Shown here: positions 4,827 through 17,882 of the stretch, piece by piece | Layout: each line of letters starts with the position of its first letter | Position numbering within the stretch: position 1 is the first letter of the stretch | Assembly: GCF_024462775.1 (NCBI RefSeq) | Contig: NZ_JANGCE010000022.1 | Location: forward strand, 1 to 64,000 | Length of the DNA stretch: 64,000 bases | From: Butyricicoccus faecihominis | Lineage (GTDB): Bacteria; Bacillota; Clostridia; Oscillospirales; Butyricicoccaceae | Direction of reading: 5' to 3' | Notes under the pieces: generated by a model | Told to the model about the DNA's origin: nothing | What the model saw: only the letters and a program-made list of their open reading frames with translations | The model's database searches: none | Program-made: the position numbers and the translations under genes

Positions 4827-5210
4827 TTATGGCCTCCTATTGGGCTCCATGGCAGTGAACTTGATCGTCAGTTCACCCCACAGATTTACCTTATCGGTCA
4901 TGCGGCGCAGCACATCCGATGCATTGGACACATATGCCCGGAAGGTTTTCGTTTCCTGCCCATATGGCACCGTGATTGTGTGGTAGTCTACCGGCGCGGT
5001 CAGCGTTTCATACAGCGCGTCATAATCGGCCGGCGACATTATTGATGATCCAAATTTCAAGTTATAGTGATAGTAAGTGCCTATCAAATCGCGCACGTAT
5101 CGGCCAGACAGCAAAGGGCCGGAGTTGCTTCCGTCTTTCAATTCGGCATTCCGCACTAACTCAACAACGCCAACTGAAAAACTTTTCCCGTCCAAAACAA
5201 TAATACTCAT
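4827..5210 (-). CDS. Small tail protein, Dit-like
   Basis: 127 aa, between tape measure and hub, the usual place of the distal tail protein. It starts MSIIVLDGKSFSVGVVELVR and ends with a beta-rich segment (VNLWGELTIKFTAMEP), consistent with a one-domain tail-ring protein. It is much shorter than classic two-domain Dit proteins (about 250 aa), so it would be a minimal version. The start overlaps the tape-measure stop by one base. Role inferred mainly from position. Confidence 0.55.
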   Translation of the reverse strand: MSIIVLDGKSFSVGVVELVRNAELKDGSNSGPLLSGRYVRDLIGTYYHYNLKFGSSIMSPADYDALYETLTAPVDYHTITVPYGQETKTFRAYVSNASDVLRRMTDKVNLWGELTIKFTAMEPNRRP

Positions 5211-8032: not shown

Positions 8033-8424
8033 TTTCTTAGCACCTTAGTGACATTCGTGTACTTTGCAAGCTTTTTCTCCTGTTCGGCGGAAACGCATGT
8101 TTGAACCTCATATAAAAACTGGAATACCACATCAAGCGAAAAAGTATTACAGAATACCATTTCACTTGTTCCGTTTCCGAACAGATCATCAATGTCAGTG
8201 TAAATGTCCTTGCAAATTTTCTCTTCCAGATCGATGAATGCCGCCCCATCGCTTTGGGGGATTTTTTGCGCGTCTGCTATATATTTTTCCTGCCGCTGCT
8301 TAAATTTCCCTTGAAGCGCATAAAACGAACGCCTAAAATCAGTATTGCTAGGGTCAAACACCAGCTCTCCGACCGGTTTCCCGTTGCGCTCCACCGGAAG
8401 AATCAGATTTGTTTGAATATTCAT
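8029..8424 (-). CDS. Tail assembly chaperone (first)
   Basis: 131 aa, between the tail tube gene and the Gp15 homologue, the standard chaperone position. It resembles the DUF6673 group of phage proteins (FDPSNTDFRRSFYALQGKF, then EKYIADAQKI). It is helical and charged and has no membrane segment. Four-base overlaps at both ends couple it to its neighbours. Chaperone function rests on synteny and family resemblance. Confidence 0.6.
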   Translation of the reverse strand: MNIQTNLILPVERNGKPVGELVFDPSNTDFRRSFYALQGKFKQRQEKYIADAQKIPQSDGAAFIDLEEKICKDIYTDIDDLFGNGTSEMVFCNTFSLDVVFQFLYEVQTCVSAEQEKKLAKYTNVTKVLRK

Positions 8425-15404: not shown

Positions 15405-16574
15405 CTACCACCTGTAAACGCCGCGCAAGATGGTCATGCAGAAGTACCGCATATCGTCCATTGCGTGATCGTTCTCCTTGATTACCTGATCCTGCCCGGC
15501 TTTATCGTCCCACGCATAGGCCCCAAACTCACGAATGCTGTCGGCGCAGCTCGCGGCCACCTGCACCCTGCCGGCCGCGAGCAGGCGCGCCGTGTGCCGT
15601 ATGCCGTCCAGCACATGATTATTCGCCTTTTGCACCCGATACCGCCCGTGCCGTCTGATCGTTTCGATAAAGCTGGCCGCGGACGGGTCGACGACAATAT
15701 CCTGTATCGCGCGATCACCCGCGAGCTTTTCCAGCGCGGCATAGTATTCCTCGTCGGTTTGCTGCCGTTTTTCCTTGCGGCCGTCGTAGTAATACTCGGC
15801 CACGCGCACGGCCCGCTCCGGCGTCACGCACCAAAGCCCCGCCGAAAACGGGTTCATGGTGCCGTAGTCACAGCTTATGTACCACAAGCCGTCAGTCGGC
15901 AACGTGCGCGCGATATGCTCGTCCGCGTTAAACGTCGGGTAAACCAGCCCCTCCGCGCGCACCCAGCGCCCCAAGACAAAGCGGTCATAGTAGACCGTGC
16001 CGCCGTAGTCGCGCCTAATCTCAGCCGCGACACGTGGGTCGAGGAAAGGATTGTCGTCCAGCGTGTAGCTCTGCCGGTAGATGTCACTGTCACCCTTTAG
16101 GAAATCCAGAAACCAGTGCGTGGGCGCGTCCGGGTTGCAGGTTCCATCAAAAGTGCTGTTTGGATACGACAGTCGAGATTTCAGCATCGAGAACACATCC
16201 TCGTGCCACGTCGTCACCTCGTCGCCATAGCAATATTCAATGCCCGCGCCCTGTATCTTGCTGACCTGATTGACCTTATCCGCGCCCAGCACATAGACCG
16301 TCTTTCCGAAAAGCTGCACAGTGTTGTCGCTGATCGTAGAGCCTACAAGCCGGTCTGTCCATATCTCGCGCATAGGGTCAAGCAGGTTGCGCCGCAGCGT
16401 GCCCTGCGTGTTGCCCAACATGACGATTAGTCCGCCGTTATGACAAGCCCGGATGCGCTTGGGAATCATGAAATAATCAAGATAAGTCTTGCCCGAGCGC
16501 GTCGCGCCCTCCTTGATGTTCCAGCGGTGCGTCGCGTGCGTCCAGTATTCCTTTTGTTTAAGACTGAGCCGCAT
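15405..16574 (-). CDS. Terminase large subunit
   Basis: 389 aa from ATG 16574, chosen for its GGAGG site; it overlaps the terS end by 17 bases. The Walker A motif GATRSGKT lies at 23-30 and the Walker B-like IEYCYGDEV near 110-118. The nuclease half has WYISCDYGTMNPFSAGL (first acidic residue) and IVVDPSAASFI, and the C-terminus has NDHAMDDMRYFCM. Architecture and length fit the PBSX/T4-type (Terminase_3/6) ATPase-nuclease that packages DNA through the portal. Confidence 0.92.
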   Translation of the reverse strand: MRLSLKQKEYWTHATHRWNIKEGATRSGKTYLDYFMIPKRIRACHNGGLIVMLGNTQGTLRRNLLDPMREIWTDRLVGSTISDNTVQLFGKTVYVLGADKVNQVSKIQGAGIEYCYGDEVTTWHEDVFSMLKSRLSYPNSTFDGTCNPDAPTHWFLDFLKGDSDIYRQSYTLDDNPFLDPRVAAEIRRDYGGTVYYDRFVLGRWVRAEGLVYPTFNADEHIARTLPTDGLWYISCDYGTMNPFSAGLWCVTPERAVRVAEYYYDGRKEKRQQTDEEYYAALEKLAGDRAIQDIVVDPSAASFIETIRRHGRYRVQKANNHVLDGIRHTARLLAAGRVQVAASCADSIREFGAYAWDDKAGQDQVIKENDHAMDDMRYFCMTILRGVYRW

Positions 16575-17046
16575 CGTCGATCCCCTCCAATATCCTGTCG
16601 AGCTTTTCGAGAGCATCGGTATCCGCGCCCTTATCAAACAGCCCGACGTGCTTGCCGAGCAGTTCGAGGGCCTTTACCTTATCCGCGATCTTGACCTCAC
16701 GTTCGACGCCGGTATCCATCTTTTTGACCTTGACTCCGGCCAGCGCCGCCCGGTCGTCCTCGCTTGCATCCGGCAACACCTTTCCGCTTTTGAAATCCAC
16801 AAGCTGCGTCGGGTCGACGAAGGCCAGCCTCGCCAGCTCCCGCACGACACGGTCGGCATTGACGCCCGTCCGACGGCTTCGTTCAGCGATCGCTTTGTCT
16901 ATACGCGCGCGAATATTCGGGTTCTTCAATAACGCGCACCCTTGCTGCCCCGCACCGTCTGTCGAATACCCCGCCCTGATAGCCGCCTGCGTCGCATTTA
17001 GGTCGATGAGGTATTCCTCAGTAAACCGTATTTGCTTCTTGGTGAT
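16558..17046 (-). CDS. Terminase small subunit, no canonical start codon
   Basis: In-frame coding similarity to Terminase_2 proteins (PF03592) begins at ATC 17046 (I-T-K-K-Q-I-R-F-T-E-E-Y-L) and continues through LNATQAAIRAGYS, the DNA-binding helix-turn-helix. It runs without interruption into KNPNIRARIDKAIAERS and the C-terminal part. The first conventional start in this frame is a TTG at 16929, which would delete the DNA-binding domain. A TGA lies 7-9 bases before the ATC. AGGCGGTGAGG stands at a ribosome-site distance. Either ATC/ATT initiation, a mutated ATG, or loss of function; see findings. Confidence 0.7.
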   Translation of the reverse strand: MTKKQIRFTEEYLIDLNATQAAIRAGYSTDGAGQQGCALLKNPNIRARIDKAIAERSRRTGVNADRVVRELARLAFVDPTQLVDFKSGKVLPDASEDDRAALAGVKVKKMDTGVEREVKIADKVKALELLGKHVGLFDKGADTDALEKLDRILEGIDDAAQS

Positions 17047-17075
17047 AACACCTCACCGCCTTTCTTTCGGATATG

Positions 17076-17104
17076 AAAAAGCAGCCCCGTTTCCGAAGCT
17101 GCTC
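17076..17104 (-). terminator. Terminator between tRNA-like element and terS
   Basis: On the minus strand AGCAGC and GCTGCT pair around a 12-base loop and are followed by TTTTTC. It would end a leftward transcript carrying the tRNA-like element, before terS. Confidence 0.5.
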
Positions 17105-17174
17105 TTGGCCGGCTAAAATTTGTATTGGGATTGAAGAAGTTTTCAACTCCTTCGTTTTGATTTGCCGGCGATTG

Positions 17175-17286
17175 TGGGGAAGACGGGTCTCGAACCCATA
17201 TGCGTCCCGGCTACTGCTGGCCAACTTCACCGGGTGAACCACGATCATCTTACGCTGCGCTGCCTTACCCATTAGGCTACTTCCCC
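17175..17286 (-). ncRNA. tRNA-like element with expanded anticodon region
   Basis: Minus strand, 112 nt. The acceptor strands GGGGAAG (17286-17280) and CTTCCCC (17182-17176) pair perfectly over 7 bases, with an A discriminator. The D arm is GCCT-AATGGGTA-AGGC. The T arm is ATGGG-TTCGAGA-CCCGT, with the invariant TTCGA. Between D and T arms are 62 nt instead of about 23, containing extra hairpins (TTCAC-CCG-GTGAA; TTGGC...GCCGG) and no clean 5-bp anticodon stem. CCA is not encoded. Best described as a tRNA-derived or tRNA-mimicking phage RNA. Confidence 0.6.
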
Positions 17287-17288
17287 AT

Positions 17289-17307
17289 ATGCCCCTTATC
17301 GGGGCAT
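17289..17307. repeat. Perfect 7-bp hairpin next to the tRNA-like element
   Basis: ATGCCCC-TTATC-GGGGCAT, two bases upstream of the tRNA-like acceptor stem. Could be a processing or cos/pac-related structure. Confidence 0.5.
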
Positions 17308-17376
17308 GCTCCGCTGTTAAACAGACAGAGATAATACTTGGCCGCCCGCGGGTCGTGCCCCGCTTCGCGGCGTGTC

Positions 17377-17394
17377 GCCGCCCCGAAGGGCGGC
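17377..17394. repeat. Perfect 7-bp GC hairpin
   Basis: GCCGCCC-CGAA-GGGCGGC in the non-coding region ahead of terS, with no T run on either strand. Part of the structured leader of the packaging operon. Confidence 0.5.
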
Positions 17395-17413
17395 TATGAA
17401 CAGGAGGCTCAAC

Positions 17414-17470
17414 ATGGATATTTTCACTGATCCACGGTACCAGTATAAACCCTTGATAGGGTCGCGTTAG
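17414..17470 (+). CDS. Candidate 18-aa peptide on the opposite strand
   Basis: A consensus AGGAGG (17402-17407) stands 6 bases before ATG 17414; the frame gives MDIFTDPRYQYKPLIGSR and a TAG. It points away from the packaging genes. The ribosome site is excellent but the peptide is tiny and unknown, and the sequence also carries the putative late promoter on the other strand. Confidence 0.25.
   Translation: MDIFTDPRYQYKPLIGSR
17442..17470 (-). promoter_or_regulatory. Putative activator-dependent late promoter
   Basis: On the minus strand a TATACT (17447-17442) has no recognisable -35 hexamer. Instead the inverted repeat ACCCT-N4-AGGGT (17449-17462) fills the spacer region. It lies just downstream of the ArpU-like activator gene and upstream of the packaging genes. 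It is a natural candidate for the late promoter that this activator turns on. Confidence 0.4.
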
Positions 17471-17477
17471 GCAAACT

Positions 17478-17882
17478 TTATGGCAAGTCTAGAAATTTTT
17501 CAACACACCGGATAAATTCAGAGTTCCATGTATGGGCCGTCCTCTCACTCACCGGCACGCACAGCGCCGCCCCGTACAGCGTGTGCGACCGGTCCCAATA
17601 CACCCGCCGTATCAGCTCCAACCGGTGCCGCCCCTGCCGCATCCGCCCGGTCTCCTCAATTGCCGCGGTCACTGCGTCATACCGCCGCTGCTCCTTGTCC
17701 GTCAGCCTATCTACCACGGCCCGCTCCACCGGTCGCCCGACACCGCTGCCGTGCCCGCCGGACGGCCCATAGGCCGCCGTGACGCTCTGCCCGCCGACAC
17801 TCTCCGCCTTGCGCTTTAGCGCCGGATACGACCGTATGATGCGCTTTGTGTATTCCCACCAATCCTCGCGGGGTCTGCTCAA
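17478..17882 (-). CDS. Late gene activator, ArpU/RinA-type
   Basis: 134 aa from TTG 17882 (AAAGGAGG site inside the upstream gene). The C-terminal half RLELIRRVYWDRSHTLYGAA and VPVSERTAHTWNSEFIRCV is a sigma-70-region-4-like helix-turn-helix, as in ArpU/RinA/LtrA phage late regulators. The N-terminal half is basic (EDWWEYTKRIIRSYPALKRK). It is the last gene before the packaging operon, where such activators normally lie. It probably activates transcription of terS onward. Confidence 0.75.
   Translation of the reverse strand: MSRPREDWWEYTKRIIRSYPALKRKAESVGGQSVTAAYGPSGGHGSGVGRPVERAVVDRLTDKEQRRYDAVTAAIEETGRMRQGRHRLELIRRVYWDRSHTLYGAALCVPVSERTAHTWNSEFIRCVEKFLDLP

Follow-up and report, generated by a model that had tools for sequence, protein, structure and literature searches.

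The window, by which we mean the whole stretch of 64,000 nucleotides that was analysed, contains a prophage in which a gene with similarity to phage transcriptional activators is followed by a tRNA-like element, by the gene for the small subunit of the terminase (terS), and then by the genes for terL, the portal and the major head protein. The features of this region are listed in Table 1. The element lies on the same strand as terS and is thereby oriented in the late direction, as had been claimed in an initial annotation of the sequence.

Table 1. Features of the late leader upstream of terS and its neighbouring genes, in the order of the minus strand (coordinates of the window).
Feature	Position	Strand	Basis or remark
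Gene resembling phage transcriptional activator	17478..17882	minus	phrog_248, E 4.6e-7; no Pfam match
Proposed late promoter: palindrome ACCCTATCAAGGGT (17449-17462) and TATACT (17442-17447)	17442..17462	minus	kept in sister prophage
G+C-rich leader hairpins	17340..17394	minus	fold
Hairpin of 7 bp just 5' of the element	17289..17307	minus	sequence and fold
tRNA-like element	17175..17286	minus	112 nt including discriminator A; Rfam RF00005, 41.3 bits
Acceptor stem, 5' strand GGGGAAG	17280..17286	minus	sequence
D arm, 4 bp, loop AATGGGTA	17262..17277	minus	sequence
Insert of 62 nt replacing anticodon arm and variable loop	17200..17261	minus	no canonical arm; unstructured compared with shuffles
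T arm, loop TTCGAGA	17183..17199	minus	sequence
Acceptor stem, 3' strand CTTCCCC	17176..17182	minus	sequence; CCA not encoded
GCCGGC stem around a small hairpin, 3' of the element	17108..17169	minus	fold
Terminator-like hairpin with T run	17076..17106	minus	fold; 26/27 bases kept in L041
terS, terminase small subunit, apparent ATC start	16558..17046	minus	PF03592, E 2.8e-39; phrog_51

The tRNA model of Rfam (RF00005) recognizes the element with a score above the gathering score (41.3 against 29 bits; E 2.5e-5 for the 64-kb window), and in the alignment the two halves of the element match the ends of the model while the anticodon region stands as an insertion. Read from the sequence, pairing is complete in the acceptor stem (7/7), the D arm (GCCT/AGGC, 4/4) and the T arm (5/5, including one G-U), and the bases that form the elbow are present in the form of T8, A14 and a G-G in the D loop. 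The initial annotation was thus correct about the element with its exact ends, the three canonical arms and the replacement of the anticodon part by 62 nt, which correspond to positions 26-87 of the element. Of the 40 listed matches of the tRNA model in the genome, the element is both the longest and the lowest-scoring, and ARAGORN, when applied to the window, reported tRNA-Gly and tRNA-Lys only. An anticodon stem of 5 bp with a 7-nt loop and U33 is absent from the insert, both as it stands and after any one excision, which agrees with the earlier view that this is not a normal tRNA, and neither ARAGORN nor Rfam gave a tmRNA match to the element, as had also been anticipated. Judging from these features of its sequence, the element is a gene for a tRNA-like RNA that lacks the anticodon arm and for which an ordinary role as a tRNA is impossible. 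The catalytic core of a group I intron comprises a few hundred nucleotides, and such an intron had been dismissed as an explanation on account of size. No intron match to the element was obtained with Rfam, in support of the dismissal, but the shortness of the insert is not a valid reason for it, because inserts of just 41-48 nt are conserved in phage tRNAs, as described below. We also observed a 9-nt repeat, GCATATGGG, located on the minus strand at the 5' border of the element (17284-17292) and again in the T stem (17195-17203), which is either due to chance or a trace of recombination.

The insert itself was said to contain two other hairpins, a claim that we could not uphold since 817 of 1000 dinucleotide-shuffled sequences fold at least as stably (minimum free energy -14.8 kcal/mol, compared to a mean of -17.2 kcal/mol for the shuffles). 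The folding of the whole element is likewise close to that of its shuffles (z -0.95). No likeness was detected between the insert and the other inserts found in this study (177/200 shuffles score as high), and the search for its source recovered from the window at most a stretch of 18 nt with one mismatch, and nothing from the corresponding locus of a sister prophage (L041). A search for a parent tRNA was conducted with 38 distinct ARAGORN tRNAs, a set in which 30 of the 40 tRNA matches of the same genome were represented by loci and some loci came from other sources; the best of these shares 34 of 50 end positions with the element. An antisense interaction between the insert and terS was considered and rejected, as 173 of 500 shuffles pair equally well with the terS start.

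The leader that surrounds the element (17060-17420, 361 nt) is more stable than shuffled sequences (z -3.5, 0/100), which we attribute mainly to the flanking hairpins. The hairpin that had been noted on the 5' side of the element was recovered. A terminator had been placed on the 3' side, and a terminator-like hairpin does indeed stand between the element and terS and is almost fully kept in the sister prophage, but it is located about 70 nt away from the element. A consensus scan listed neither this hairpin nor the proposed late promoter, and both calls rest on the fold and on conservation in the sister prophage. In phage lambda, a late promoter is followed by a terminator (pR'-tR'). By analogy, we infer that a late promoter and then a terminator, with optional sequence between or behind them, may form the common plan of the leader in the window and in the sister prophage.

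The sister prophage (L041) is located in the same genome and encodes TerS and TerL proteins that are 93% and 96% identical to those of the window. It has kept the activator gene, the palindrome beside TATACT and the hairpin with the T run, whereas the tRNA-like element is absent; the palindrome and the hairpin are nearly adjacent, and an ORF (899-1393) is situated between the hairpin and terS. The absence of the element next to such a similar terS gene means that it is not a required packaging element, and the suggestion of a cos/pac structure was therefore discarded. The terS genes of both prophages appear to start with ATC (17044-17046 in the window, 1501-1503 in L041), with no in-frame ATG, GTG or TTG before it, where relatives have ATG; in a more distant relative, L032, the codon at this position is ATA and a GTG three codons earlier is a possible start.

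We inspected another 49 terS loci (24 viral loci, 15 from genomes of the same order and 10 from named genomes), 45 of which have at least 600 nt upstream of terS. T arms of the tRNA type with complete stems were identified upstream of terS in L016, L024 and L032, and tRNA-like signals of any kind were confined to L032, L044 and the lineage of L024 and L016. ARAGORN, applied to the 25 genome loci, predicted tRNA(CAT) genes in L032 (2041-2115, minus strand, 67.2 bits with Rfam, CCA encoded) and in L044 (2606-2679, 50.8 bits). The former belongs to a genome of the same family as the window (G033; TerS identity 57%), and by eye its gene order is that of the window, with an activator-like gene, a hairpin, the tRNA with CCA, a terminator-like hairpin and terS. 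In L044, about 320 nt, which include a small ORF, separate the tRNA from the terS match that follows it. These ordinary tRNAs are found at the same place and on the same strand as the element but differ from it by their canonical CAT arm and encoded CCA, and since their sequence similarity to the element is poor, place alone is shared. Since L032 and L044, two prophages with related terS genes, have tRNAs in place and L041 has none, the late leader is best understood as offering a slot for tRNA genes upstream of terS that is used repeatedly but not obligatorily, and the element as filling that slot.

The tRNA(CAT) of L032 carries a C1-A72 mismatch and A11-U24, which we take to be marks of bacterial initiator tRNAs. 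Another element with an acceptor stem and a T arm is present upstream of terS in L024 (2392-2490) and in L016. It was called tRNA-Pro in L024 by ARAGORN in the survey of the 24 viral loci, but reached only 21.4 bits as tRNA-Sec at a cut-off of 47, and is weak as a candidate for a tRNA; Rfam searches of 20 of the 24 viral loci gave nothing over the cut-off. A general link between long tRNA-like genes and terS was not seen at 20 loci judged by their neighbouring ORFs; at one of them (L204), an ORF resembling a terminase follows at a distance of about 1.3 kb.

Viral contigs were scanned for long tRNA-like genes with a pattern in which the D arm and the T arm are separated by 46-76 nt. The scan yielded at least 120 stretches, at least 90 of which passed the filters on the acceptor and T stems, and together with a narrower scan and some genome loci at least 114 distinct long genes were kept. 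Among the 114 listed genes, 30 have a 5/5 stem and a 7-nt loop near the usual place and 84, including the window's own copy, do not. Removal of one segment yields an anticodon stem of 5 bp in 50 of these 84 genes, and in 29 of them with p<=0.05 against shuffled inserts. A motif group of genes with sizes of 109-123 nt was represented by 20 aligned members, picked by eye for the motif, which is thus not an independent finding; 17 of the 23 predicted pairs have changed on both sides. The extra segments in this group comprise 41-48 nt and follow after nt 28 or 29, and their removal would leave anticodons for Thr, Gln, Arg, Lys, Asn, Gly, Ile and Phe. When removed in a fixed register, which had been read from the same members beforehand, the canonical arm is restored in 13 of the 20 members (L089, L092, L098, L116, L131, L149, L150, L178, L185, L192, L200 and two genes in L203) and fails to be so in 7, compared to 0.161 expected from shuffles and 2 of 66 among the other genes.

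An alignment of 14 inserts revealed a hairpin in which 6/6 pairs have changed on both sides, next to an invariant core, C-N-GCA, mostly in the form of ACAGCAA or ACTGCAA. The covariation score of the hairpin is 0.729 (shuffles 0.283, 0/500; best slid version 0.236), a value that leans toward the hairpin because the structure was derived from the same 14 inserts. A model of the insert only (R2) finds more cases in L107, L137, L153, L267, L268 and L274, where the matches in L107 and one each in L137, L153 and L268 are genes of alignment A1 and not of alignment A2, and the only match of the full-length model outside A1 is L235:1369-1487. A match to the motif group was also found in an uncultured phage of 735 kb (L281), with 72% identity over 88%. 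We regard the conserved inserts as a candidate family of mini-introns, a suggestion drawn from sequence comparisons.

Searches for homologs of the element itself gave none that was convincing. In its own genome, the element matches only itself, and a DNA search of 87 genomes of the family gave nothing convincing, with one further match (E 0.0018) at a locus with several tRNAs. The D-arm string was found with two mismatches in G024 among 60 relatives and in none of the viral contigs. A pattern built on the D and T arms identified no homolog in 391 genomes of the class, where it matched the element's own copy, G566, with just 3/7 acceptor pairs, and G714, where the match belongs to the conserved-insert kind. 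A looser pattern matched 5 of 394 genomes of the order, with L274, L275, L277 and L278 among the loci concerned, of which L274 is of the conserved-insert kind (23.7 bits with R2); this pattern is noisy, as its backward control matched about 20 times. With the leader as a DNA query, the 391 class genomes gave two matches of 32-34 nt, both outside the element, and the matches from phage and plasmid DNA searches span only 7% and 17% of the query. The T arm together with the acceptor was recovered from one viral contig (L282), in a gene with 18.6 bits as tRNA-Sec at a cut-off of 47. Located at about 8060-8260 on the minus strand, this gene shares the acceptor GGGGAAG/CTTCCCC and the T loop TTCGAGA with the element but has no evident D arm, and it adjoins a second T-arm element that is followed by CCA. 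Six viral genes with a similar D arm (L215, L217, L219, L223-L225) have inserts that differ from that of the element and are not restored to a stem of 5 bp (four of the six tabulated).

The reading that we tentatively prefer, although the odds are somewhat against it, is that the element is a remodelled phage tRNA gene in the optional late-leader slot before terS, which is still made and matured. This is suggested by the intact body of acceptor, D and T arms, by the failure of any one excision to turn the element into a tRNA, by the ordinary tRNAs at the same place in L032 and L044, and by the lack of the element in L041. The preserved elbow-forming bases, the structured leader and the poor codon score of an overlapping ORF speak in the same direction. 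Against this reading count the unstructured insert, the poor sequence similarity to the tRNAs of L032 and L044, the higher codon score of the first 96 nt of the overlapping ORF, the silence of the consensus scan on the proposed promoter and terminator, and the lack of a homolog, and thus of both covariation and any sign of selection on the insert. According to this reading, the element would be transcribed from the late promoter, after which its 5' end would be cut by the RNase P of the host and its 3' end finished by RNase Z and the CCA enzyme, for all of which an intact tRNA body should be enough. The product would be an RNA of about 112 nt that is unable to decode, and its most likely use might be that of a decoy, exposing an elbow and an acceptor to tRNA-binding enzymes or to defences that target tRNAs. 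Both an RNA matured by RNase P/Z and a decoy had been among the possibilities named in the initial annotation. Maturation of the element would also separate the leader from the terS message.

Almost as probable is that the element is a decaying relic of a tRNA gene in the late-leader slot, which recently became non-functional through the exchange of its anticodon arm for 62 nt. The two explanations come so close because the insert bears no sign of selection and the relatives keep ordinary tRNAs in the slot. The insert, unstructured compared with its shuffles and unlike any other insert found, would be expected from a relic, and the element is present in a single copy and absent from the sister prophage. 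On the other hand, all 16 pairs of the three arms are intact, as are the elbow bases.

Alternatively, the element could act in cis, either as a cutting site for RNase P and RNase Z in the manner of tRNA punctuation, or in the service of the late activator or of antitermination before terS. The anticodon arm would then be free to change, the flanks are structured, and L032 has the same slot, strand and order. However, the sister prophage manages nearly the same late genes without the element, few of the 49 terS loci have anything tRNA-like upstream (L032, L044 and the L024/L016 lineage), and the insert pairs no better with the terS start than its shuffles do. We therefore consider a cis-acting role unlikely.

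It is also quite unlikely that the element is a tRNA gene interrupted by an unfamiliar kind of intron, the removal of which would yield a working tRNA. Inserts of phage tRNAs without which a canonical arm is regained do exist in the motif group, and three basal pairs, GCG/CGC, are possible in the element. Yet the best stem obtained after any one excision has 3 bp, for which 0.98 of the shuffles are as good, and the canonical arm is not restored in the conserved register after nt 28 or 29. The insert scores -0.1 bits with R2 with filters off, lacking both the covarying hairpin and the C-N-GCA core, and the full-length model gives 41.1 bits, as compared to about 24-51 for ordinary host tRNAs and 84.3 for a held-out member, with a poor alignment of the inner part. 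Having failed on excision, register and both models, membership of the element in the conserved-insert family was rejected. On present sequence comparisons, the element has its architecture in common with the conserved-insert tRNAs but is not of their family. Finally, the explanation that the element is the start of a protein-coding gene (ORF 17018-17272, 84 codons) with tRNA likeness as a by-product is highly improbable, for although the frame is open through the element, with an ATG in the D loop, GGGGAAG as a possible ribosome site and first 96 nt that score 0.18 per codon, in the low range of the genes, the tRNA-model E-value is 2.5e-5, the full ORF has a codon score of 0.083, less than any of the 18 prophage genes used for comparison (0.137-0.509 per codon), searches of Pfam and PHROG and a tblastn search of phages with the first 41 codons gave no match, and the frame continues through the terminator-like hairpin into terS.

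The remodelled tRNA gene that we prefer may be compared with a few known systems. Like the element, the stable RNAs species 1 and 2 of phage T4 (rnaC and rnaD) are small phage-encoded RNAs, and by eye a T arm of the tRNA type can be recognized close to the 3' end of rnaC, as in the element. They differ, as far as a comparison by reading alone can tell, in that they belong to a tRNA cluster and display no canonical D arm. The available text on cabRNA describes a structured RNA from terS-terL that activates CBASS (PMC10686824), and the element would resemble it in being a structured late RNA of the terminase region; cabRNA arises inside terS and terL, however, and is based on hairpins, with no likeness to a tRNA described in that text. 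No tRNA-like RNA before terS was found in the titles and abstracts of the literature searched.

A broader hypothesis, which we think of as doubtful, is that phages repeatedly convert tRNA genes into non-decoding RNAs by keeping the chassis of elbow and acceptor while swapping the anticodon domain, the RNAs being made and matured as tRNAs are, in order to occupy host tRNA enzymes or defences that cut tRNAs. If true, the element would belong to these RNAs, and its slot is one that holds an ordinary tRNA in relatives. Provided that the RNA is made and matured, it would represent a natural tRNA body free of decoding and could serve as a probe for proteins that read just the elbow and the acceptor, for which the ordinary tRNA genes in the late-leader slot of relatives offer a ready comparison. 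Genes of this type are missed by annotation, as was the element by ARAGORN, or taken for ordinary tRNAs, as exemplified by a member of the motif group that is annotated as tRNA-Val in the Aeromonas phage Aeh1 (L280) and as tRNA-Leu in PX29, and is left without annotation in others. Annotation may therefore be concealing a class of phage RNAs.

The conserved inserts reach further than the element, in that a segment of 41-48 nt, far smaller than a group I intron, is found at one site in phage tRNAs of at least eight identities, with occurrences in Aeromonas phages, the 735-kb phage and Clostridia genomes. These tRNAs resemble the element in size (109-123 nt) and in having an insert within the anticodon arm of a tRNA body, but the covarying hairpin and C-N-GCA core on the one hand and the site at nt 28/29 or 29/30 on the other are both features that the insert of the element does not fit. 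According to a review from 2014, all phage group I introns observed by then were located in protein-coding genes (PMC3984707, in the part available). The Lak megaphages have tRNA genes with "enigmatic introns" (Devoto et al., 2019; PMC6784885), and among titles and abstracts this is the only paper that treats inserts in phage tRNAs. From what is accessible of that paper, the Lak genes resemble the element as phage tRNA genes enlarged by extra sequence, but they were assigned to a tRNA type after removal of the insert, whereas no excision turns the element into a tRNA. The conserved inserts are possibly the same as the Lak introns.

Several additional cases were noted. A conserved-insert gene in L267 (about 4996-5126, G273:C29:9995-10125; 67 bits with R1, 18.8 bits with the insert model), from a genome of the same order as the window, is immediately followed by an ORF that reads as alaS. 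Two conserved-insert genes in tandem, in a Clostridia genome (L268, G714:C62; also L235), are followed by an ORF that looks by eye like an HNH endonuclease. Phage tRNA genes in L177, L189, L152 and L157 contain about 20-25 inserted nucleotides in the region of the anticodon loop, and apparently represent a second kind of interrupted tRNA.
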